64,000 bases of DNA from Citreicoccus inhibens (GCF_019039035.1 NZ_JAHNZT010000014.1:1-64000), one strand, 5' to 3'; numbered from the stretch's first letter, positions 24,151 to 41,189 are shown. Program-made: numbers and translations. The notes: generated by a model not told the origin, from the sequence alone.

Positions 24151-24270
24151 CCGGGCAATTCCAAGGAGGCAGCGCCGGGCAGTTCGGACGAGGCAGCGCC
24201 GGGCAGTTCGGAGGAGGCAGCGCCGGGCAGTTCGGAGGAGGCAGCGCCGGGCAGTTCGGAGGAGGCACGG
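24151..24270. repeat. Five tandem 24-bp repeats in a divergent intergenic region
   Basis: Five head-to-tail units of 24 bp at 24151, 24175, 24199, 24223 and 24247, consensus CCGGGCAGTTCGGAGGAGGC plus AGCG. Units 3 and 4 are identical, unit 2 differs at one base, and the outer units are more diverged. Because 24 is a multiple of three, both strands stay open (AAPGSSEE on +, SSELPGAA on -), but no start codon with a ribosome-binding site precedes them. They end about 93 bp upstream of a sigma54-like promoter. Confidence 0.9.
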
Positions 24271-24362
24271 CTGTCAACGTCGACGACAGCCACCGTCAAC
24301 CCATGTGTCGCTCCATGGGCGCGTTTGAGGGCAAGTGCTCGGAACGTCTCGGGACCGTCGGG

Positions 24363-28133: not shown

Positions 28134-28217
28134 ACTGAACCTGACCTGCGAGGATGTCTGTGTTTTCGCGGTTGGGGGTGAAGCCAGAGCGCAGTCTTCC
28201 AGTCTGTGTGTCACATG

Positions 28218-28243
28218 TCAGGGCAATCCCTGACGTCAGGGGT
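28218..28243. promoter_or_regulatory. Palindrome plus half-site upstream of the first ECF sigma gene
   Basis: GTCAGGG-CAAT-CCCTGAC is a perfect inverted repeat (28218-28224 with 28229-28235), followed directly by another GTCAGGG half-site at 28236. It lies 58-83 bp before the sigma start and 85 bp after the kinase stop. There is no T-tract, so an operator is more likely than a terminator. Confidence 0.45.
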
Positions 28244-28300
28244 TCGGTAATGAAAGGATTTCGGCGGATGGCGTTTTGAGGGGAGAGGGAGGGCCTCCCG

Positions 28301-28858
28301 ATGCCAGATACCCCCGAACAGGCCTCCGAGGAGTTCGCGGCTTTCGCCATCCGTTATCAACCTGTGTTGTTGCCCATCGCACGAACCCTCAGCGGGGGCC
28401 GCGCGAGTGATTGCGATGACCTGGTCCAGGACGTCCTGCTGCGCGTGCTCCTTCGCTGGGATCGCCTGAAGACCTGGGCCGAGCCGGCGCGGCGCGCGTG
28501 GATGGTGCGCGTGCTGCGCAATTGTTTCCTCGACCGCTGCCGCCGCCAGGGCGCGGAGTCCGAGCGCATCATCGACCTGACCAACGTGCACCAGCTCTTC
28601 GTGGATCCAGAGGCCGGAGAGTTCGAGCTGTGGGAGTTCATCACCGAGGACGAGCTGCGCGAGGCCGTCTCGGAGCTCCAGGACAACCAGCGCAAGGCGT
28701 TCGAGCTGCGCTGCCAGGGCCTGCGTCACGCGGAGATTGGCCGCCGGCTGGGCGCGCCGGTGGGCACCGTGGGCACGTGGCTGTTCCATGCGCGCCAGGG
28801 CCTGCGCGAGAAGCTGCGCGAGAGAGCGGAGGCCCGCCGCCAGCAGAGGAAGCGATGA
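28301..28858 (+). CDS. ECF sigma factor 1
   Basis: The 185-residue product has sigma region 2 (DDLVQDVLLRVLLRWDRL, then AWMVRVLRNCFLDRCRRQ) and region 4 (AVSELQDNQRKAFELRCQGL, HAEIGRRLGAPVGTVGTWLFHAR), with no region 3. This is the standard ECF (group 4) layout. It is clearly paralogous to the sigma factor at 29420: region 4 ends (V/E)GTVG(T/S)WLF(H/Q)AR in both. The stop overlaps the next ATG (ATGA), coupling it to a zinc-finger anti-sigma-like protein. Confidence 0.9.
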   Translation: MPDTPEQASEEFAAFAIRYQPVLLPIARTLSGGRASDCDDLVQDVLLRVLLRWDRLKTWAEPARRAWMVRVLRNCFLDRCRRQGAESERIIDLTNVHQLFVDPEAGEFELWEFITEDELREAVSELQDNQRKAFELRCQGLRHAEIGRRLGAPVGTVGTWLFHARQGLREKLRERAEARRQQRKR

Positions 28859-29340
28859 GCCCCGCGTGCGCGCGCCTGCGCTCCTTCCTGGATGGACTCC
28901 TGGATGCGCGGGCGCAGCGCCACTTCCTCAGGCACCTTGGGAGCTGTGAGGCGTGTGGGCGCCGGCTTCTGGAGATGCTCCAATTGGAAGTGCTGGCGCG
29001 GCTGGCCCTGGATGACGTCGCGGCCCGCGAACGCGCGGTGGCGGCGCGGCGGGTCCGTGACGACACGCCTCGACCGGGACGCGCGGGAGTGGATGCCGCG
29101 CGGAAGGACTTGGACGCGGCGGTGCGCCGGCGGGGCACGCGACGAGGTGGGCCACGGTGTGCTTCGGAGATACATGTCCGGGGTGGCGCCCCTTCTGGCG
29201 CGGCGCGCCGCGAGCCTGGGGGGCCGCCGGAGTGGGTCCGAACCGCTCTTCGAGGGGAGTCGCTGGACGCGCTGCGAGCAGGCGAGCCCGGGCGCAGGAG
29301 GCCGCGAGGCGGACCGGTTAAGGCGCCGTCATGCCTGTGA
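28855..29340 (+). CDS. Short zinc-finger anti-sigma-like protein, possibly decayed
   Basis: The 161-residue product begins with a zinc-finger anti-sigma motif: His27, Cys31 and Cys34 in RHLGSCEACG (HX3CX2C), followed by LEMLQLEVLARLALDDV. The same residues sit at the same positions in the CHAT protein at 30019, which reads HHLAHCEECA and MQLEVLGMHALRDV. After residue ~55 this protein loses any match. The rest is Arg/Gly/Pro-rich with no membrane segment, like translated noncoding G+C-rich DNA. It may be a soluble anti-sigma factor or the remnant of a longer protein that lost its TM-TPR-CHAT part. Confidence 0.65.
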   Translation: MSPACARLRSFLDGLLDARAQRHFLRHLGSCEACGRRLLEMLQLEVLARLALDDVAARERAVAARRVRDDTPRPGRAGVDAARKDLDAAVRRRGTRRGGPRCASEIHVRGGAPSGAARREPGGPPEWVRTALRGESLDALRAGEPGRRRPRGGPVKAPSCL

Positions 29341-29419
29341 TTCCCGTGCATGTCCTCTGAGGGCCCAAGGATTCAGGGGCCGCGCGTTAGGAGGGGGCTG
29401 AGGGAGGGCGCGGGCTCGA

Positions 29420-30022
29420 ATGCGGGTGCATCTCAATGCGACGGCGGCGGAGGCCCATGTGGCCTACAGTGCCGGCGTGACCCACGACGGTGGCTTCGAG
29501 CAGTTCGCGCGCGAACTCCGGCCTGTCCTGCTGTCCCTGGCGAAGCGTTTGTGTGGCCAGGGCGGTATCGACCCGGAGGACCTGGTCCAGGAGACGTTGG
29601 AGCGCGCCTTGCGGCACTTCGGCACGCTCAAGGTCCTGCCCGAGCCGGTGTGTCGCGCGTGGTTGTGCCGCGCGCTCAACAACCGGTTCCTCGACCTCTG
29701 TCGCCGTCGGCGCACGGAGGTGATGGAGGAGCCGAAGCTGCGGCTGTTGCGCACCGACACGGTGAGCCCGGACGACGTCTCGGGCGAGGTGTGGGAGCAC
29801 ATCAGCGAGAACGACTTTCGTGCGGCCATCTCCCGGTTGCCGAACCCTCGCGTTCGCGAGGCCTATGAGCTGCACGTCGCCGGAAAGCGCTATCGCGCCA
29901 TCGCGCAGCAGATGGGGGTGCCGGAGGGCACCGTGGGGAGCTGGCTCTTCCAGGCCCGCAAGGAACTGCGGGACCTGTTGTTGCCACTGACCGGCGGCGA
30001 TGGAGGCGGGGAACCGAGATGA
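29420..30022 (+). CDS. ECF sigma factor 2
   Basis: The 200-residue product has region 2 (PEDLVQETLERALRHFGTL and AWLCRALNNRFLDLCRRR) and region 4 (RVREAYELHVAGKRYRAIAQ, EGTVGSWLFQARKELRDLL). It is a paralogue of the sigma factor at 28301. ATG 29420 has a GGGAGG about 12 bases upstream; GTG 29477 would give a shorter N-terminus closer to the paralogue. Its stop overlaps the ATG of the zinc-finger/CHAT protein, so sigma factor and presumed membrane anti-sigma factor are co-translated. Confidence 0.9.
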   Translation: MRVHLNATAAEAHVAYSAGVTHDGGFEQFARELRPVLLSLAKRLCGQGGIDPEDLVQETLERALRHFGTLKVLPEPVCRAWLCRALNNRFLDLCRRRRTEVMEEPKLRLLRTDTVSPDDVSGEVWEHISENDFRAAISRLPNPRVREAYELHVAGKRYRAIAQQMGVPEGTVGSWLFQARKELRDLLLPLTGGDGGGEPR

Positions 30023-32982
30023 GTGCCCAGTGTCAGCGGCTGTATCTCTTCGTGGACGGGGAGCTGGGGTCGGTGGATGAGGAGACCTTCCGTCACCACC
30101 TCGCGCATTGTGAGGAGTGCGCCTCCGGACTCCATGACGCCATGCAGTTGGAGGTGCTCGGCATGCACGCGCTGCGGGATGTTCCCGTCGAGCGCGCGCA
30201 GCCCGCCGAGCCCCCTCCGGTCGTGGTCCCCCTGACGCGCCCCACGCGCGCTCCGAAGTGGTCGCCCGCGGCGGGCTGGCGGCTGGGGGCGGGGTTGGCG
30301 CTGGCGGCGGGGCTCGCGGCGGTCGTCGTGATGACGCGAGGGCCCCGCGACGTCCCGGCGGAGGTGTGGCTGGCGGATGCGTCCACGCGCACGTTGGAGG
30401 CGCGCGTGGCCTACGGCGCGGCGGATCATCACCATCCCTATGTGCCCATGCGTGGGGAGCGCAGCCCCGAGGCCGCGCGCGCGCCGCTGCCCCTGCGCAA
30501 GCTGGCGGACCTCCAGGACCGAGGAGACCTGCACGGCATCGCGGCGGCGTATCTGGTGCGCAAGGACCTGCGGCAGGCGGCGGACTTCCTCCAGCGCTCG
30601 CCTCCGTCGCTGGACCGAGACTGCGACCGCGCCGTGATTGCGATGGAGCAGGGCGAGTTCGACGAGGCGCTGGCGCTGCTGGACGGAGTGCTGCGGCAGC
30701 GGCCCGGGCATCCGCAAAGTCTGTGGAACCGGGCGCTGGTGCTGCGCGAGCTGGGGCTGACGCTCCAGGCCGCCGAGGCCTTTGACGCGGTGGCGAAGCA
30801 AGGCGAGCCGGGCTGGGCGGAGGAGGCGGCGGTGCGAGCCCGCGCCTTGCGACAAGGCACCCTGCGGCGCGCCCGCGCCTTCGAGGAAGCCTACGCGTCG
30901 ACGCGCGGACTGATGACGGACGCGGGAGCCCCCCTCCCTTTTGAGGAAGCCCGGCGCCAGCCGGGCATCGCTCGACTCAACTTCTACGACGCCGTGCGCG
31001 CCGCGCCCACCCGGGACGCGGCGCTTCGTTTATTGCCCCTGGCGGAGGCACTGGACGGCGTGCAGGGCGGAGCGGTGCTGCGCGAGTACGTGCAGCGCGT
31101 GGCGGCCCGAGACTTCCAGACGCGCGGCCCCCTCGCGCGCGAGTACGCCCAGCTCGTGCTGGGCTCGCACCCCGCGAAGGATGTCTTCGTGGAGGCCCTC
31201 CGGCGCTCGGGCGAGGACGACTTGTACCTGGGCGCGCTCGTCTACGCGGGGCGCGTGGGGACGCACCTGGGGGACTTCACGCGCATTGCCCAGGCGTCGC
31301 GAGACCCGTGGCTCCAGCTCCTCTCCGAGCGAGAGCTGGCGGGGCAGGAGAGCCAGGCCTCGCAGTGGTGGAAGGCCGAGTCTCGCCTGCTGGCCGCGCT
31401 GAAGGACTGCCGGGGCGCGGGGCTGGCCTATCGCTGCCTTACGTTGAAGAAGCGGCTGGTGGACCTGTACGTGGCGCTGCACCGCCCCGCGGACGCGTAC
31501 GAGCAGGCTTCGAGCGGATGGCGCTGGGCGAAGGACCTGGGGGAGTGGAACCTGGAGCAGCAGTTCCTCGAGGAGCTCTCCATCGTCGCGCGCTATCGCC
31601 ATAGCACCGCCAGCGCGCGCGCCTTCTTGCAGGAGTCGCTGGCGCGAATGCCCGACGATTGCGAGCAGCGCTCCTTCGTGCACCGCAACCTCGCGCAGTT
31701 GGCATGGCTGGATTTGCGTCCGGAGGAGGCCCGAGGTGAGTTGGAGCAGGCCGCGCGCTGTGGCCAGGCGTTGGGCGTGCCGGGCGCGCTGGTGCTGGCG
31801 GACCTCGCTCGGCTGGGGCGCGGTCCCGAGGACGCGCGGTGGTTGGAGCGGACGCTCGTGATGGCGCGCGAGGGGCGGCCCTCTCCGGGTGAGCAGTCGC
31901 TCTTGAGCCTCATCGAGGGACAGTTCGAACTGGAGCGTGAGCCGCCGCTGGGGCGACGGCTCTTGCACAGCGCCATCTCGCAGGCGGAGCTGCTGCCGGA
32001 TGACACGGACGCGCGCAAGGCGCGGCGTGGTGCGTACGGCGCCTTGGTGGCGGACGCCGGGAGGGCGAGCGCGCACGGAGAGGTGCTGGCGTTGATGGGC
32101 GCGGCGCTTCGCGTGGACGTGCCCGAGCGCTGCGTGCTGGCCGTCATGGTGCAGTCCGAGCGAACGGTGGTGGCCGCGCGCGGCGCGAATGGCCAGTGGT
32201 TGGGGCACTCCGATGCGGGGCGCACGGTGCCGCTCGGGCAGGATGCGTCGGGGCTCGTGCCCGCGTCGATCCAGGACGCGCTGCGGGGGTGTCCCTGGGT
32301 GGAGGTGCTGGCGCTGCCGCCGGTGCAGGGGCTCGCGGGGTTGCTGCCCGTGGACTTCGCGTGGGGGTATCGGGTGAGTGGGGCGGGGGCTCGCTCTCCC
32401 GCGCCGTCCGGGGCGCATCTGGTGGTGACGGGCGTGGAGGCGCCTGCGTCGCTGGGCCTGCCAAAGCTCTCGCCGCTGGAGTCACCCGGGGGCGAGGACC
32501 CTCGCCGCATCGAGCTGCGCGGCGCGCAGGCCACGCCCTCTCGCGTGCTGTCCGAGATGCAGTCCGCGGAGGAGGTGGAGATCCACGCGCATGGCCTCTT
32601 CAGTCCGGAGTTGTCGGACGCCTCGCTCGTGGTGCTCTCGCCGGAGGATGACGGGCGCTACGCGCTCACGGCCGCGGATGTCCGAGCCCGAAAGCTGAGC
32701 GGCGCGCCGCTGGTCTTGCTCGCCGCATGTGGCGCGGCGCGCGCGTGGCCCTTTCCTCACGAGTCCTTCAGTCTCCCCGTGGCGTTCATGGACGCGGGGG
32801 CGCGCGCGGTGCTGGCCTCGACGGAACCCGTGCCGGATTCGGCCGGGCGCTTCTTCGAGTCCGTGCGCGAGCGCATTCGTTTGGGCGCGCATCCCGCCAT
32901 CGTGTTGCGTGACGAGCGGCAGCGGTGGCTCGCGGCGGATCCGACCGCGACATGGGTCTCCCACGTCCTACTGTTCGAATAA
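30019..32982 (+). CDS. Membrane zinc-finger anti-sigma factor fused to TPR-like repeats and a CHAT caspase-like domain
   Basis: The 987-residue product reads as: zinc-finger anti-sigma domain (His27, Cys31, Cys34), Pro-rich linker, one membrane segment at about 86-105, a long helical region (~150-700) with TPR-like pairs such as AVIAMEQGEFDEALALLDGV, then a CHAT domain. The catalytic dyad is visible: His858 in IHAHG and Cys904 in LLAACGAARA, with LTAADV between them. The finger would sit in the cytoplasm holding the sigma factor and the repeats and protease in the periplasm, if topology follows the usual N-in pattern. CHAT domains are clan CD peptidases related to caspases and separase. Sensing and proteolysis in one anti-sigma factor is my inference. 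Confidence 0.88.
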   Translation: MSAQCQRLYLFVDGELGSVDEETFRHHLAHCEECASGLHDAMQLEVLGMHALRDVPVERAQPAEPPPVVVPLTRPTRAPKWSPAAGWRLGAGLALAAGLAAVVVMTRGPRDVPAEVWLADASTRTLEARVAYGAADHHHPYVPMRGERSPEAARAPLPLRKLADLQDRGDLHGIAAAYLVRKDLRQAADFLQRSPPSLDRDCDRAVIAMEQGEFDEALALLDGVLRQRPGHPQSLWNRALVLRELGLTLQAAEAFDAVAKQGEPGWAEEAAVRARALRQGTLRRARAFEEAYASTRGLMTDAGAPLPFEEARRQPGIARLNFYDAVRAAPTRDAALRLLPLAEALDGVQGGAVLREYVQRVAARDFQTRGPLAREYAQLVLGSHPAKDVFVEALRRSGEDDLYLGALVYAGRVGTHLGDFTRIAQASRDPWLQLLSERELAGQESQASQWWKAESRLLAALKDCRGAGLAYRCLTLKKRLVDLYVALHRPADAYEQASSGWRWAKDLGEWNLEQQFLEELSIVARYRHSTASARAFLQESLARMPDDCEQRSFVHRNLAQLAWLDLRPEEARGELEQAARCGQALGVPGALVLADLARLGRGPEDARWLERTLVMAREGRPSPGEQSLLSLIEGQFELEREPPLGRRLLHSAISQAELLPDDTDARKARRGAYGALVADAGRASAHGEVLALMGAALRVDVPERCVLAVMVQSERTVVAARGANGQWLGHSDAGRTVPLGQDASGLVPASIQDALRGCPWVEVLALPPVQGLAGLLPVDFAWGYRVSGAGARSPAPSGAHLVVTGVEAPASLGLPKLSPLESPGGEDPRRIELRGAQATPSRVLSEMQSAEEVEIHAHGLFSPELSDASLVVLSPEDDGRYALTAADVRARKLSGAPLVLLAACGAARAWPFPHESFSLPVAFMDAGARAVLASTEPVPDSAGRFFESVRERIRLGAHPAIVLRDERQRWLAADPTATWVSHVLLFE

Positions 32983-33080: not shown

Positions 33081-33239
33081 ATGGCGATCGATTCGAAGGG
33101 TTCGGGGAGCGGCGGGCAGAACATGGTGGATCCGAAGGACGTCCCTCCCGAGAAGAATCCGGGGCTTGTGGCGACGTCGCCCACGTCGACCGGCAAGGCG
33201 CGCTCGCACGGCGCCTCCACGCCCGCGTCCGGCGCGTAA
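33081..33239 (+). CDS. Small Gly/Ser/Pro-rich protein
   Basis: A 52-residue frame starts at ATG 33081 behind GGGGGAAT. It reads MAIDSKGSGSGGQNMVDPKD and continues polar and Pro/Ser-rich to the stop, with no Cys, membrane segment or signal peptide. Composition and ribosome-binding site are better than chance, but nothing identifies a function. It could be a small disordered protein. Confidence 0.4.
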   Translation: MAIDSKGSGSGGQNMVDPKDVPPEKNPGLVATSPTSTGKARSHGASTPASGA

Positions 33240-36977: not shown

Positions 36978-38624
36978 TCAGCCATCATCGGGAAAGCTCT
37001 CGTCACGGCCACTTGCGTCCTTCCAGCCGAGGCCGAAGCGCGCGAGGTACTTCCTCAGCCGGTCCGCGTCGTTGACGCTCTTCTTCTGGGCCCGTGAGCG
37101 CGCGAAGAGCAGCCGCCCCGCATCCGAGAGCGAGCGCGCCGAGCGGCACACGCCGAGCACGTCCTCGAGCTGAACGCGATCGAACCGGTCCAGCTCCGCC
37201 GCGAGCGAGGCGCCCAGCACCTCGCTCACCCGGTCCGAGCCCGAGCCCATGGCGACCGGGGTGCTGGGCTGCCACTTCGCGCGCAGGCGCTCCAATTCTT
37301 CCTCGACCACGTCCCGGGTGATGCGACCGCCCGAGGCGAGCGTGGCCATGCGCAGCACGGCGGCGTTGAGGTCGCGGAAGTTGCCGGACCAGCGGCCTTC
37401 GGCAGACGTGGCGAAGCGGAGGAAGTGCGTCTGCGCTTCCTTGTTCATCGTCACCCGGGTGCCGAGCGCCTGGGAGGCCTGCTCCAGTTCGAACTGGAGG
37501 TTGGGCGGGATGTCCTCGGGGCGCTCGCGCAGCGCGGGCAGGCGGAACGTCCACAGGTTGATGCGGGCCAGCAGGTCCTCGCGGAAGCGCCCGCGCTCCA
37601 CCTCGGCCTGGAGGTCGCGGTTGGTGCCGGCGATGAGCTGGAAGTCGCTCTCGGCCTCCTTGTCCGCGCCCACCGGAAGGAAGCGCTTGTCCTCCAGCGC
37701 GCGCAGAAGCATGGCCTGCTCGTCCGCGCCCAACTCGCCAATCTCGTCCAGGAAGAGCACGCCGCCGTGGGCCTGCTTCAAGAGGCCCGGCCGGTCCGCC
37801 AGCGCGCCCGTGAAGGCGCCCTTCACGTGGCCGAACAGCGCGGACATGGCGGCGTCGCCGCGCAGCGTGGCGCAGTTGAGGTCCACGAACGGACCGCTCA
37901 CCTGTCTTCGCGTCTTCTTCAACGTGAAGACGCGCCGGGCGAGCTGCGACTTGCCCGCGCCCGTCGGGCCCGTGAGCAACATGGGCGCGCGCGACTGGAG
38001 CGCGACCTGCTCGATGCGCTCGATGAGGCGGTTGAAGGCGGTGTTGCGCGTGTCGATGCCGGCCTTGAGAAAGGCGAGCCCCTCGCGTTGCTCCTCGCGG
38101 AAGCGCGCGGCCAGGGCGTCATAGCGAGACAGGTCCAGGTCGATGAGCGTGTGCGTGCCCGGCCCGCTGCGGTCCCTCCCCGTGCCGGGGGTCATCTGGA
38201 TGAGCTTGCCGGGGATGTGGCGGCTCTCCACCAGCAGGAACATGCAGATCTGCATGATGTGCGTGCCGGTGGTGATGTGGACGAGGTAGTCCTCTTCCTC
38301 GGGCTGGAAGGGATAGGTGCGCACGTAGTCGAGCAGCGCGCAGTAGGTCTCCTCCAGGTTCCACGGGTCGCGGATGTCGAGCGGCGTGGGACGCACCTGC
38401 GTCTCCGGTGACACCTGCTGGATGTCGGCCTGAACCGTGGCGCACAGCAGCCCGGCGCTCGGCGGATGCAGCAGCTCCAGGCGGTGCACCACCAGGTCAT
38501 CCTGCTGGCACATCGCCACCGTGGGCCGCCACTTCGTCCAGCGGTGCGGTCCCTGGCCTGTGTCCAGGCTCGTCCCGAGCATCCCCAGCACGACCGTCCT
38601 GCGCCCCCGCGTCTTTTGAGCCAT
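36978..38624 (-). CDS. rtcR: RtcR, sigma54 activator of the RNA-repair operon (CARF-AAA+-HTH)
   Basis: The 548-residue product has the RtcR layout. An N-terminal CARF domain (about 1-170, starting VVLGMLGTSLDTG and with HITTGTHIMQ) senses an RNA-derived ligand. The AAA+ domain has Walker A GPTGAGKS (219-226), the sigma54-contact loop GAFTGA (269-274) and Walker B GVLFLDEIGE. A helix-turn-helix closes the protein. It is divergent from rtcB-rtcA, with a sigma54 promoter for rtcB between them. In E. coli, RtcR activates rtcBA when its CARF domain senses RNA-damage products. Confidence 0.96.
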   Translation of the reverse strand: MAQKTRGRRTVVLGMLGTSLDTGQGPHRWTKWRPTVAMCQQDDLVVHRLELLHPPSAGLLCATVQADIQQVSPETQVRPTPLDIRDPWNLEETYCALLDYVRTYPFQPEEEDYLVHITTGTHIMQICMFLLVESRHIPGKLIQMTPGTGRDRSGPGTHTLIDLDLSRYDALAARFREEQREGLAFLKAGIDTRNTAFNRLIERIEQVALQSRAPMLLTGPTGAGKSQLARRVFTLKKTRRQVSGPFVDLNCATLRGDAAMSALFGHVKGAFTGALADRPGLLKQAHGGVLFLDEIGELGADEQAMLLRALEDKRFLPVGADKEAESDFQLIAGTNRDLQAEVERGRFREDLLARINLWTFRLPALRERPEDIPPNLQFELEQASQALGTRVTMNKEAQTHFLRFATSAEGRWSGNFRDLNAAVLRMATLASGGRITRDVVEEELERLRAKWQPSTPVAMGSGSDRVSEVLGASLAAELDRFDRVQLEDVLGVCRSARSLSDAGRLLFARSRAQKKSVNDADRLRKYLARFGLGWKDASGRDESFPDDG

Positions 38625-38637
38625 GGAGATAGGACTT

Positions 38638-38651
38638 TATCCCAAAGGATA
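38638..38651. promoter_or_regulatory. Inverted repeat, candidate RtcR-binding site
   Basis: TATCC-CAAA-GGATA is a perfect 5-bp inverted repeat in the rtcR-rtcB intergenic region, about 70 bp upstream of the predicted rtcB start site and 14 bp upstream of the rtcR ATG. An enhancer here could serve rtcBA activation and limit rtcR. The short arms make it only suggestive. Confidence 0.4.
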
Positions 38652-38694
38652 GAGATGACGAGCCCCCACCCACGCTCTCCCTCGGGGGAGGAGT

Positions 38695-38709
38695 TGGCAC
38701 GCCGGCTGC
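38695..38709 (+). promoter_or_regulatory. Sigma54 promoter of rtcBA
   Basis: TGGCAC-GCCGG-CTGC has the -24 GG (38696-38697) and -12 GC (38708-38709) at correct spacing. The predicted start near 38721 leaves a leader of about 47 bases before rtcB. Presence of RtcR next door, a sigma54 activator, strongly supports it. Confidence 0.88.
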
Positions 38710-38767
38710 TCTAGGCCTCCCCCGTGACCGGGACGTAGCGCCCGGCGGACGACGAAAGGTGAAGGAC

Positions 38768-40003
38768 ATGAGCCGCGAGAACTTGGGTTACGAGGTGCTG
38801 TCGGACGAGGCGGGTCGCCCCATCAAGGCGTGGACGGTGGGGGTGCCGTTCGAGGACGAGGCGAAGCAGCAGCTGCGAAACCTCCGGGGTCTGCCGTTCA
38901 TCCACAAGTGGGTCGCGGCGATGCCGGACGTGCACCGCGGTTACGGCGCCACGGTGGGCAGCGTGGTGCCGACGGTGGGCGCGGTGATTCCCGCGGCGGT
39001 GGGCGTGGACATCGGATGCGGGATGATCGCCGTGCGCACGACGCTGCGCGCGGAGCAACTCCCGGACTCGCTGAAGGCGGTGCGCTCGGCCATCGAGCGG
39101 ACGGTGCCGCACGGCCGTACCGATAACGGCGGCCCCAATGACCGAGGGGCGTGGCGCGCGGCCCCCAAGGGCCACCAGGAGGCGTGGGCGAAGCTGGTGA
39201 CGGGATACGACGCCATCGTCGCCAAGCACCCGCGCATCGGCCGAGGCCCGGAGCTGGGGCACCTGGGAACGCTGGGAACCGGGAACCATTTCATCGAGCT
39301 GTGTGTCGATGAGTCCGACGGCGTGTGGCTGATGTTGCACTCGGGGTCCCGCGGGGTGGGGAACCGCATCGGGAGCTACTTCATCGAGCGGGCGAAGGAG
39401 GACATGCGCCGCTGGTTCGTGAACCTCCCGGACGCGGACCTCGCGTACCTGCCCGAGGGAACGACGCTCTTTGACGACTACGTGTTCGCGGTGGGGTGGG
39501 CGCAGGACTTCGCGGCGATGAACCGCGAGCTCATGCTGCGCTCCGCGGTGGAGGCGCTGCAGCGCTGCAACGAGCTGCCGCCGTTCGAGCTGTCCGAGTC
39601 GGCGGTGAACTGCCACCACAACTACATCTCCCGTGAGCACCACTTCGGGAAGAACTGCTTCGTGACGCGAAAGGGCGCGGTGCGGGCGCGTGCCGGGGAC
39701 CTGGGAATCATCCCCGGAAGCATGGGAGCGCGTTCGTACATCGTCCGCGGGAAGGGGAACGCGGACGCCTTCGAGTCGTGCAGCCACGGCGCGGGCCGAG
39801 CGATGTCGCGCGAGGCGGCGAAGAAGCGCTTCACGCTGGATGACCACGCGAAGGCGACGGCGGGGGTGGAGTGCCGCAAGGACGTGGATGTGATTGACGA
39901 GACGCCCGGTGCCTACAAGTCCATCGACGCGGTGATGGCGGCGCAGGCGGACCTGGTGGAAGTGGTCCACACCCTCAAGCAGGTCGTGTGCGTGAAGGGG
40001 TAG
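38768..40003 (+). CDS. rtcB: RNA-splicing/repair ligase RtcB
   Basis: RtcB joins RNA 2',3'-cyclic-phosphate or 3'-phosphate ends to 5'-OH ends using GTP and Mn2+. The 411-residue product has the metal and guanylate-site motifs: GVDIGCGM (Cys ligand), LGTGNHFIEL, MLHSGSRGVGN, NCHHNYISREHH, and CSHGAGRAMSR with the His that is guanylylated. The start is ATG 38768 behind AAGGTGAAGGA. The ligand set appears complete. It is the first gene of the RtcR-controlled transcript. Confidence 0.96.
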   Translation: MSRENLGYEVLSDEAGRPIKAWTVGVPFEDEAKQQLRNLRGLPFIHKWVAAMPDVHRGYGATVGSVVPTVGAVIPAAVGVDIGCGMIAVRTTLRAEQLPDSLKAVRSAIERTVPHGRTDNGGPNDRGAWRAAPKGHQEAWAKLVTGYDAIVAKHPRIGRGPELGHLGTLGTGNHFIELCVDESDGVWLMLHSGSRGVGNRIGSYFIERAKEDMRRWFVNLPDADLAYLPEGTTLFDDYVFAVGWAQDFAAMNRELMLRSAVEALQRCNELPPFELSESAVNCHHNYISREHHFGKNCFVTRKGAVRARAGDLGIIPGSMGARSYIVRGKGNADAFESCSHGAGRAMSREAAKKRFTLDDHAKATAGVECRKDVDVIDETPGAYKSIDAVMAAQADLVEVVHTLKQVVCVKG

Positions 40004-40064
40004 TCCCACCCTTCTTGTGCACGCCCCCCACGCGGAGGGTTCCATGCCGGGATGACCATGCCGA

Positions 40065-40117
40065 GGCGCCCGCTCCCTCCGAGACCGCAAGGTCGCCAGG
40101 TTGGGGGAGCGGGCGCC
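40065..40117 (+). ncRNA. Long structured hairpin between rtcB and rtcA
   Basis: A perfect 13-bp stem, GGCGCCCGCTCCC (40065-40077) with GGGAGCGGGCGCC (40105-40117), encloses an inner hairpin GACC-GCAA-GGTC (40083-40094) with a GNRA loop. What follows, GCTATTTCAG, is too poor in T for a standard terminator. It lies inside the rtcBA transcript, 62 bp after rtcB and 56 bp before rtcA. It could stabilise or process the message, cause partial termination, or be a small RNA of the repair system; which is unknown. Confidence 0.45.
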
Positions 40118-40172
40118 GCTATTTCAGGAGAGGGCTTGCACCCGCGTGAGGGGCGGCGGAGGAATACAGGAC

Positions 40173-41189
40173 ATGCTGACGATTGATGGTTCCAAGGGCG
40201 AGGGGGGCGGGCAGGTGCTGCGCACGGCGCTGGCGCTGGCGCTGGTGACGCGGACGCCGCTCCGCATGGTGAACATCCGCGCCGGGCGCGAGAAGCCGGG
40301 CCTCCTGCGCCAGCACCTCACCGCGGTGAAGGCCGCGGAGGCGGTGGGCGCGGCGGAGGTCTCCGGCGCGGAGCTGGGCTCGCGAGAGCTGACGTTCGAG
40401 CCGCGCGCGCTGGCGGCGGGCAACTACCACTTCGCGGTGGGCTCGGCGGGCAGCGCCACGCTGGTGCTCCAGACCGTGTTGCCCGCGCTCCTCCTGGCGG
40501 AGGGCCCTTCGTCGCTGCGGCTGGAGGGGGGGACGCACAACCCGGCGGCGCCGCCGTTCGACTTCCTGGCCAAGGCCTTCCTGCCGCTCGTCCAGCGAAT
40601 GGGGCCGCGCGTGGAGGCGACGCTGGAGCGCCCGGGCTTCTTCCCCGCGGGAGGCGGTCGCTTCCGCGTGGACGTGCACCCCGCGAAGCTCCAACCCCTG
40701 GACCTGCCGGAGCGCGGGCGGGTGGTGCGTCGCGCGGCGGTGGCCACGGTGTCGGGCATCCCCTACGACGTCGCGCGCCGCGAGCTGGACACCGTGGGGG
40801 ACATCCTCAAGCTGCGCCCGGACGAACTGCACCCGGACGAACTCAAGCGCGGCATCGGGCCGGGCAACGTGCTGCGCGTGGAGGTGGAGTGCGAGCACGT
40901 CACCGAGGTCTTCACCGCGTTCGGCTCGCGCGGCCGGGCCGCCGAGCACGTGGCCGAGGAGGTCGCGCGCGAGGCGAAGCAGTACCTCGACGCGGAGGTG
41001 CCCGTGGGCGAGCACCTGTGTGATCAGCTCCTGCTCCTGCTCGCGCTCGCCCGAGGCGGCAGCTTCCGCACGTTGCCGCTGGATGGCCACGCGCGGACGC
41101 AGATCGACACGATGGCGCACTTCCTCGACGTGAAGGTGTCCACGCGCGAGGTCAGCCGCGGGGTCCACGAAGTGGAAGTGCGCGGGTAG
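40173..41189 (+). CDS. rtcA: RNA 3'-terminal phosphate cyclase RtcA
   Basis: RtcA converts RNA 3'-phosphate ends to 2',3'-cyclic phosphates through an adenylylated His. The 338-residue product starts MLTIDGSKGEGGGQVLRTAL (ATG 40173 behind GGAGGA). It has REKPGLLRQHL, GSAGSATLVLQTVLPALL and the late segment CDQLLLLLALARGGS, with the probable nucleophile His in LDGHARTQID. The family residues are present and the length is normal. It is second in the RtcR-regulated operon, after rtcB and the intergenic hairpin, and converges with the GIN lipoprotein gene. Confidence 0.95.
   Translation: MLTIDGSKGEGGGQVLRTALALALVTRTPLRMVNIRAGREKPGLLRQHLTAVKAAEAVGAAEVSGAELGSRELTFEPRALAAGNYHFAVGSAGSATLVLQTVLPALLLAEGPSSLRLEGGTHNPAAPPFDFLAKAFLPLVQRMGPRVEATLERPGFFPAGGGRFRVDVHPAKLQPLDLPERGRVVRRAAVATVSGIPYDVARRELDTVGDILKLRPDELHPDELKRGIGPGNVLRVEVECEHVTEVFTAFGSRGRAAEHVAEEVAREAKQYLDAEVPVGEHLCDQLLLLLALARGGSFRTLPLDGHARTQIDTMAHFLDVKVSTREVSRGVHEVEVRG

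Follow-up and report, generated by a model that had tools for sequence, protein, structure and literature searches.

The closest described relatives of the system analysed here are the extracytoplasmic function (ECF) sigma factor DdvS and its transmembrane anti-sigma factor DdvA, from Myxococcus xanthus. A study of the DdvS regulon reportedly found that it includes a type III-B CRISPR–Cas system, and is said to have proposed that the large C-terminal part of DdvA senses a signal. As described in PMC4374960, DdvS is active when DdvA is inactivated or removed, with an active ddvS promoter (PddvS), and the trigger signal is stated there to be unknown; the regulon study also appears in the reference list of PMC11237760. 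According to PMC10028731, the CASP system uses the TPR-CHAT protease Csx29 to cleave a sigma inhibitor, and sigma release of the RseA type is thought to need cuts both outside and inside the membrane. Here we describe a locus in a 64,000-nucleotide stretch of the genome of Citreicoccus inhibens, a predatory bacterium of soil (NZ_JAHNZT010000014.1:1–64000; hereafter the window), in which region 28,301–32,982 carries two tandem ECF sigma genes and the gene for a 987-residue anti-sigma protein. We read this locus as a DdvA-family ECF sigma/anti-sigma switch in which a periplasmic CHAT domain would make the first cut of a proteolytic cascade, a proposal to which we give an even chance of being correct.

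A DdvA-type anti-sigma factor behind an ECF sigma gene

Sigma factor 2 (29,420–30,022; 200 residues; alternative start GTG at 29,477) matches Pfam Sigma70_r2 (2.2e-11) and Sigma70_r4_2 (1.7e-12), and its stop is overlapped over 4 bp (ATGA) by the start of the anti-sigma gene (30,019–32,982); both genes are on the plus strand. The 987-residue product begins with a zinc-binding anti-sigma (ZAS) finger (residues 1–62; 30,019–30,204) with the ligands C5-H27-x3-C31-x2-C34, which matches zf-HC2 at 5e-7 (residues 6–35; 30.1 bits, cut-off 22.2) and resembles the solved DdvA finger 8rlz. Hydropathy places the sole hydrophobic segment at residues 88–106 (30,280–30,336), and a juxtamembrane motif, R-x-L-E-A-R-V ... 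A-D-x-x-R/H-P, lies at residues 124–140 (30,388–30,438). The TPR region, from about residue 158 to 698 (30,490–32,112), gives a TPR_16 match of 1.2e-8, forms helical repeats in the structural model and contains the cysteine pairs C464/C473 and C548/C581. The CHAT domain (residues 690–987; 32,086–32,979) contains a third pair, C705/C758, and is matched by Pfam CHAT at 1.4e-15 over residues 833–975 (58 bits, cut-off 24); within it lie the codons of a predicted catalytic dyad, His858 (CAT, 32,590–32,592) and Cys904 (TGT, 32,728–32,730). A preliminary description of this region, made from the sequence alone, had named tandem sigma modules, a 4-bp overlap and a 987-residue protein with an HX3CX2C finger, one membrane segment, a TPR-like region and a CHAT domain with these two residues; the coordinates are exact, Pfam and hydropathy find every one of the parts, and His858 and Cys904 are where it placed them.

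A phmmer search of solved structures aligned residues 2–987 to residues 3–991 of PDB entry 8rot (478 bits, E 3e-142), with a second full-length match to 8rw5; the finger matched 8rlz, ‘Antisigma factor DdvA’. The full-length structures bear the titles ‘Cryo-EM structure of the transmembrane anti-sigma factor DdvA’ and ‘Symmetry expansion of dimeric transmembrane anti-sigma factor DdvA’. On these matches, the 987-residue protein belongs to the DdvA-type transmembrane anti-sigma factors. Zinc finger, membrane segment, TPR and CHAT follow in the same order in both proteins, the histidine and cysteine occupy the same places, and an ECF sigma gene lies directly upstream; the window protein differs in being only about 38% identical, in falling in another clade and in having the extra C548/C581 pair. 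A 991-residue protein of another genome (L108) scores 2,191 bits against 8rot and is by that match DdvA or nearly so. Because the tree places it and the window protein in different clades of the family, the window protein is a paralogue within it. A protease-like domain is thus indeed part of the anti-sigma factor itself, as had been observed, but it already is so in M. xanthus DdvA, for which a structure has been solved. The architecture is not new, and the PDB matches rule out an unprecedented fusion, which the preliminary description had implied.

The window genome (G000; 9.05 Mb, family Myxococcaceae) encodes six full-length CHAT members of the family together with CHAT-less pieces. A family match was found in 34 of 58 Myxococcaceae genomes, with as many as about ten paralogues in one genome, each of them associated with a separate sigma gene. 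Outside Myxococcaceae, the order sample gave one genome only, with fragments, the class sample gave one weak match, and 48 genomes of the phylum searched by profile gave none; family members are common in Myxococcaceae and very rare beyond it. From these genome samples we compiled 85 distinct CHAT members as a comparison set. In all 53 profile-scored relatives that bear the finger, an ECF gene ends between 4 nucleotides inside and 47 nucleotides before it. The juxtamembrane motif is conserved in relatives having the respective column (E127 in 77/80, R129 in 75/80, arginine at 139 in 76/80). Compared with the congener G017, the ratio of nonsynonymous to synonymous substitution rates (dN/dS) is 0.12 for sigma 1, 0.05 for sigma 2 and 0.10 for the whole anti-sigma gene, low values which argue that these are not chance open reading frames.

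An invariant dyad in a caspase-like fold

Among the segments of the anti-sigma protein, dN/dS is lowest in CHAT (0.07). His858 and Cys904 are invariant in 85/85 CHAT relatives, as are R715, C705 and C758; non-conservation of the dyad, which the preliminary description had named as a refuting outcome, was thus not observed. A CHAT-only model (mean predicted local distance difference test (pLDDT) score of 58, which is moderate, and used for fold matching only) matched DdvA, Csx29 (Z 10.8), SAVED-CHAT (10.4) and separases (about 9), followed by gingipain and caspases. In this model the domain has a caspase-hemoglobinase fold, and the reading thereby also withstood the second refuting outcome named in the preliminary description, a prediction lacking the CHAT fold. 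A full-length AlphaFold2 model built from seven sequences reached a mean pLDDT of 61, with long stretches of CHAT below 50; because of this low confidence, no disulfide or juxtamembrane-to-active-site distances were taken from it.

At about 30–40% identity among the relatives, those without a finger included, invariance of both residues is hard to explain without catalysis. It weighs against a purely conformational sensor, in which a ligand on TPR-CHAT would reshape the dimer and loosen the finger while the dyad does not cut the anti-sigma factor. DdvA is dimeric according to the title of 8rw5, and the same family has anti-sigma proteins without CHAT, both of which fit such a sensor; given the conservation of the dyad, we regard it as somewhat improbable.

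Membrane topology and paired cysteines

If it is to hold a sigma factor, the finger has to be cytoplasmic, and a single membrane segment then leaves TPR-CHAT on the outer side. In 69 of 81 relatives, the N-terminal flank of the membrane segment carries the more positive net charge. In relatives that lack the finger, the hydrophobic segment is at the extreme N terminus (residue 8–36 in most), as in exported proteins. The cysteines provide a further indication: across the 85 relatives, both members of C464/C473 are present in 80 and neither in 5, both members of C548/C581 in 67 and neither in 18, with no discordant protein for either pair, and C705/C758 is complete in all 85. On the tree, C464/C473 and C548/C581 were each lost at least twice, always as a pair, although two independent losses per pair are too few for a formal test. 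Joint keeping and loss of this kind is the pattern of disulfides and of an oxidising compartment. The co-conservation suggests that the three pairs form disulfides and, together with the predicted topology, makes the periplasm the most likely location of TPR-CHAT.

A periplasmic TPR-CHAT region could not directly cut the cytoplasmic finger, so self-cleavage alone would not free the sigma factor; release would also require either additional proteolysis or a conformational signal passed through the membrane. The window genome encodes M50 proteases. This bears on a one-protein switch in which signal binding would trigger self-cleavage and sigma release, as first suggested for the protein: an anti-sigma factor with a fused caspase-like domain is supported, whereas a complete switch is not, since a part predicted to be periplasmic could not by itself release the sigma factor.

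The predicted compartment also bears on a second early suggestion, that of a sigma-linked, caspase-like death or stress effector whose activation would cut cellular proteins and kill the cell. Its one argument is that the fold is related to those of caspases and CHAT effectors. The predicted periplasmic location is the wrong one for such an effector, a genome may have up to ten or so paralogues, each with its own sigma gene, and the apparently autoregulated sigma promoter (see below) indicates gene control. We found no support for the suggestion, ruled it out as a candidate and consider it exceedingly improbable.

A natural two-gene form

The family also includes 25 complete genes for membrane-anchored TPR-CHAT proteins that lack the finger. 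At least 14 of them lie within about 5 kb of a gene pair consisting of an ECF gene and, after it, a gene for a CHAT-less protein with finger, membrane segment and TPR; one such split pair is in the window genome itself (contig C101). These CHAT-less anti-sigma proteins have 275–500 residues and keep the juxtamembrane motif (R-x-L-E-A-R-L...A-D-x-Y-R-P), as in the fused form. With truncated genes left out, the tree requires at least four changes between presence and absence of the finger. The split loci show that the two halves, the finger part and the CHAT part, are separable. They are compatible with one membrane protein acting on another, which is not proof that it does so.

For 11 of the 25 finger-less genes there was no ECF gene in the stretch examined. 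The existence of such exported proteins means that the protease part is useful even where the finger is absent, and it favours a reading in which CHAT is active as a protease in the periplasm mainly against some other envelope protein or a foreign one, with sigma release as a separate output. We think this unlikely, because most finger-less genes (at least 14, as above) still adjoin an ECF gene and its CHAT-less partner and no substrate gene is known.

A gene of about 335 codons for a cupin/JmjC-like hydroxylase, usually on the opposite strand, was also observed between the TPR-CHAT gene and the operon of the ECF and CHAT-less anti-sigma genes (L052 5964–6992, L054 5571–6578, L061 6507–7514, L064 5463–6470, L068 6285–7295 and L081 6523–7530; three copies in L056).

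A shared promoter element and a small candidate regulon

The aligned regions upstream of sigma 2 orthologues contain one conserved block, AAGGATT-N11-CGTT, which is present before every orthologue examined, at a distance of 28–46 bp from the start of the gene or the first codon with homology. In the 64-kb window there are exactly two exact matches, one per sigma gene: one at 29,367–29,388, before sigma 2, and one at 28,254–28,275, 25 bp before sigma 1 and conserved in G017 (both plus strand). Allowing up to one mismatch, the window has 3 matches against 0.11 expected. The whole window genome has five exact matches, compared with none for a reversed-pattern control. The other three are in sense orientation, 11–55 bp upstream of the genes for an MshEN-domain protein, a FAD_binding_4 oxidase and a GMC oxidoreductase. 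Eight relatives gave 26 matches (control, 0). The element precedes sigma 2 both in G017 and in all searched genomes of the genus Myxococcus (g23); in four genomes it precedes the MshEN gene, and in three a FAD_binding_3 hydroxylase gene. It was not found before ddvS-type genes at 0–2 mismatches, and other clades of the family have related but different boxes, such as AAGGATT-N11-CGTC in split loci. Taken together, these matches suggest that sigma 2 regulates itself through the element and that sigma 1 has the same or an overlapping promoter specificity, which would couple the two sigma modules.

In g26 genomes, where the locus is without sigma 2, the element stands before the truncated anti-sigma gene. 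Both sigma 2 and the CHAT part have been lost from the counterpart locus there (L053 2754–3605, L071 4335–5396), and the element lies directly before a 283-residue remnant with finger, membrane segment and TPR, whose gene has a high third-position GC content. At L155 1551–1913, the same element precedes a 121-residue protein whose sequence resembles sigma region 2 alone and has no Pfam match.

Proposed mechanism

In the proposed cascade, the cytoplasmic finger would hold sigma 2 at the membrane, and the single membrane segment would connect the finger to a TPR-CHAT ectodomain that lies in the periplasm and is stabilised by disulfides. Some envelope signal would act on the TPR region and activate the caspase-like His858/Cys904 dyad, whereupon CHAT would make a site-1-like cut in the periplasm, either in cis or in the dimer partner; the probable target is the conserved stretch that adjoins the membrane on its outer side. 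Release would then be completed by an intramembrane protease of the RseP/M50 type together with cytoplasmic proteases, and freed sigma 2 would activate its own promoter, probably that of sigma 1 and a few further genes, for flavin oxidoreductases and the MshEN-domain protein. Of this chain, the anatomy and the placement of a conserved CHAT domain outside the membrane are well supported by computation, whereas the cut and all later events are hypothetical.

Several points weigh against this cascade. CHAT-less anti-sigma proteins persist, in g26 species before sigma 1-type genes, which means that the anti-sigma role can be filled without CHAT. The conserved dyad could serve the cleavage of another envelope protein. 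The disulfides are deduced from co-conservation, with four paired losses, and the assignment of the promoter element to a particular sigma factor is putative.

A more specific version of the cascade is possible, though we hold it doubtful: the anti-sigma factor would carry its own periplasmic site-1 protease, signal binding to the TPR region would activate the CHAT dyad of one dimer partner, which would cut the other just outside the membrane, and the split loci would be the two-gene version, with a membrane TPR-CHAT protease cutting the neighbouring CHAT-less anti-sigma factor. If true, this would be a new way to start the regulated proteolysis of anti-sigma factors; to our knowledge, the protease clan of CHAT has no such role in the periplasm. 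The invariant dyad, the co-conserved cysteine pairs that fix the membrane side, the natural split form and the promoter with few targets are new details, and they make the question of how a DdvA-type anti-sigma factor is switched off testable.

The first sigma module and neighbouring features

Sigma factor 1 (28,301–28,858, plus strand; 185 residues) matches Sigma70_r2 (1.7e-12) and Sigma70_r4_2 (3.7e-12). It overlaps by 4 bp a short zinc-finger reading frame without a membrane segment (28,855–29,340, plus strand), which was absent from the preliminary description. This frame scores 21.2 bits against zf-HC2 (3e-4), slightly below the curated cut-off of 22.2, and its counterpart in g26 relatives is a conserved 157-residue soluble protein. 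Its dN/dS against G017 (0.14 for residues 1–65, 0.40 for the tail) indicates that the finger part is under purifying selection and that the tail is probably decaying. Judged by sequence, both sigma modules have a finger, and that of the first is short and soluble. Just 5′ of the sigma 1 promoter, at 28,216–28,240, lies an inverted repeat, GTCAGGG-CAAT-CCCTGAC, with a third GTCAGGG after it; in G017 one of the arms is altered by a substitution.

A Pfam search found no family for a small reading frame at 33,081–33,239, 3′ of the anti-sigma gene. At about 24,190–24,290, in the start region of a minus-strand reading frame, a short tandem repeat encodes SSELPGAA units. An apparent RNA-repair cluster at 36,978–41,189, assigned by reading the sequence, comprises genes for an RtcR-like regulator (36,978–38,624, minus strand), an RtcB-like ligase (38,759–40,003, plus strand) and an RtcA-like cyclase (about 40,174–41,189, plus strand).

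Comparison with known systems

The type III-E CRISPR system of Csx29, Csx30 and CASP-sigma is, by analogy, the nearest functional parallel, in that a TPR-CHAT protease is linked to a sigma inhibitor. Csx29 is a separate, RNA-activated cytoplasmic protease and its inhibitor is not membrane-bound, whereas the window has one membrane protein (or, elsewhere in the family, a neighbouring pair); the CHAT domains of the two match in fold (Z about 10), with a remote sequence relation of about 11–16% in the fold alignments. In the ECF54 neighbourhoods covered by PMC8999054, CHAT proteins are likewise encoded beside ECF sigma genes, but that study treats these sigma factors as lacking an anti-sigma factor, whereas in the window CHAT is part of one. 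The RseA/DegS/RseP system resembles that of the window in having a membrane anti-sigma factor with a cytoplasmic sigma-binding part. Its site-1 protease is a PDZ serine protease, whereas the putative site-1 protease described here is a clan CD cysteine protease fused to the anti-sigma factor.

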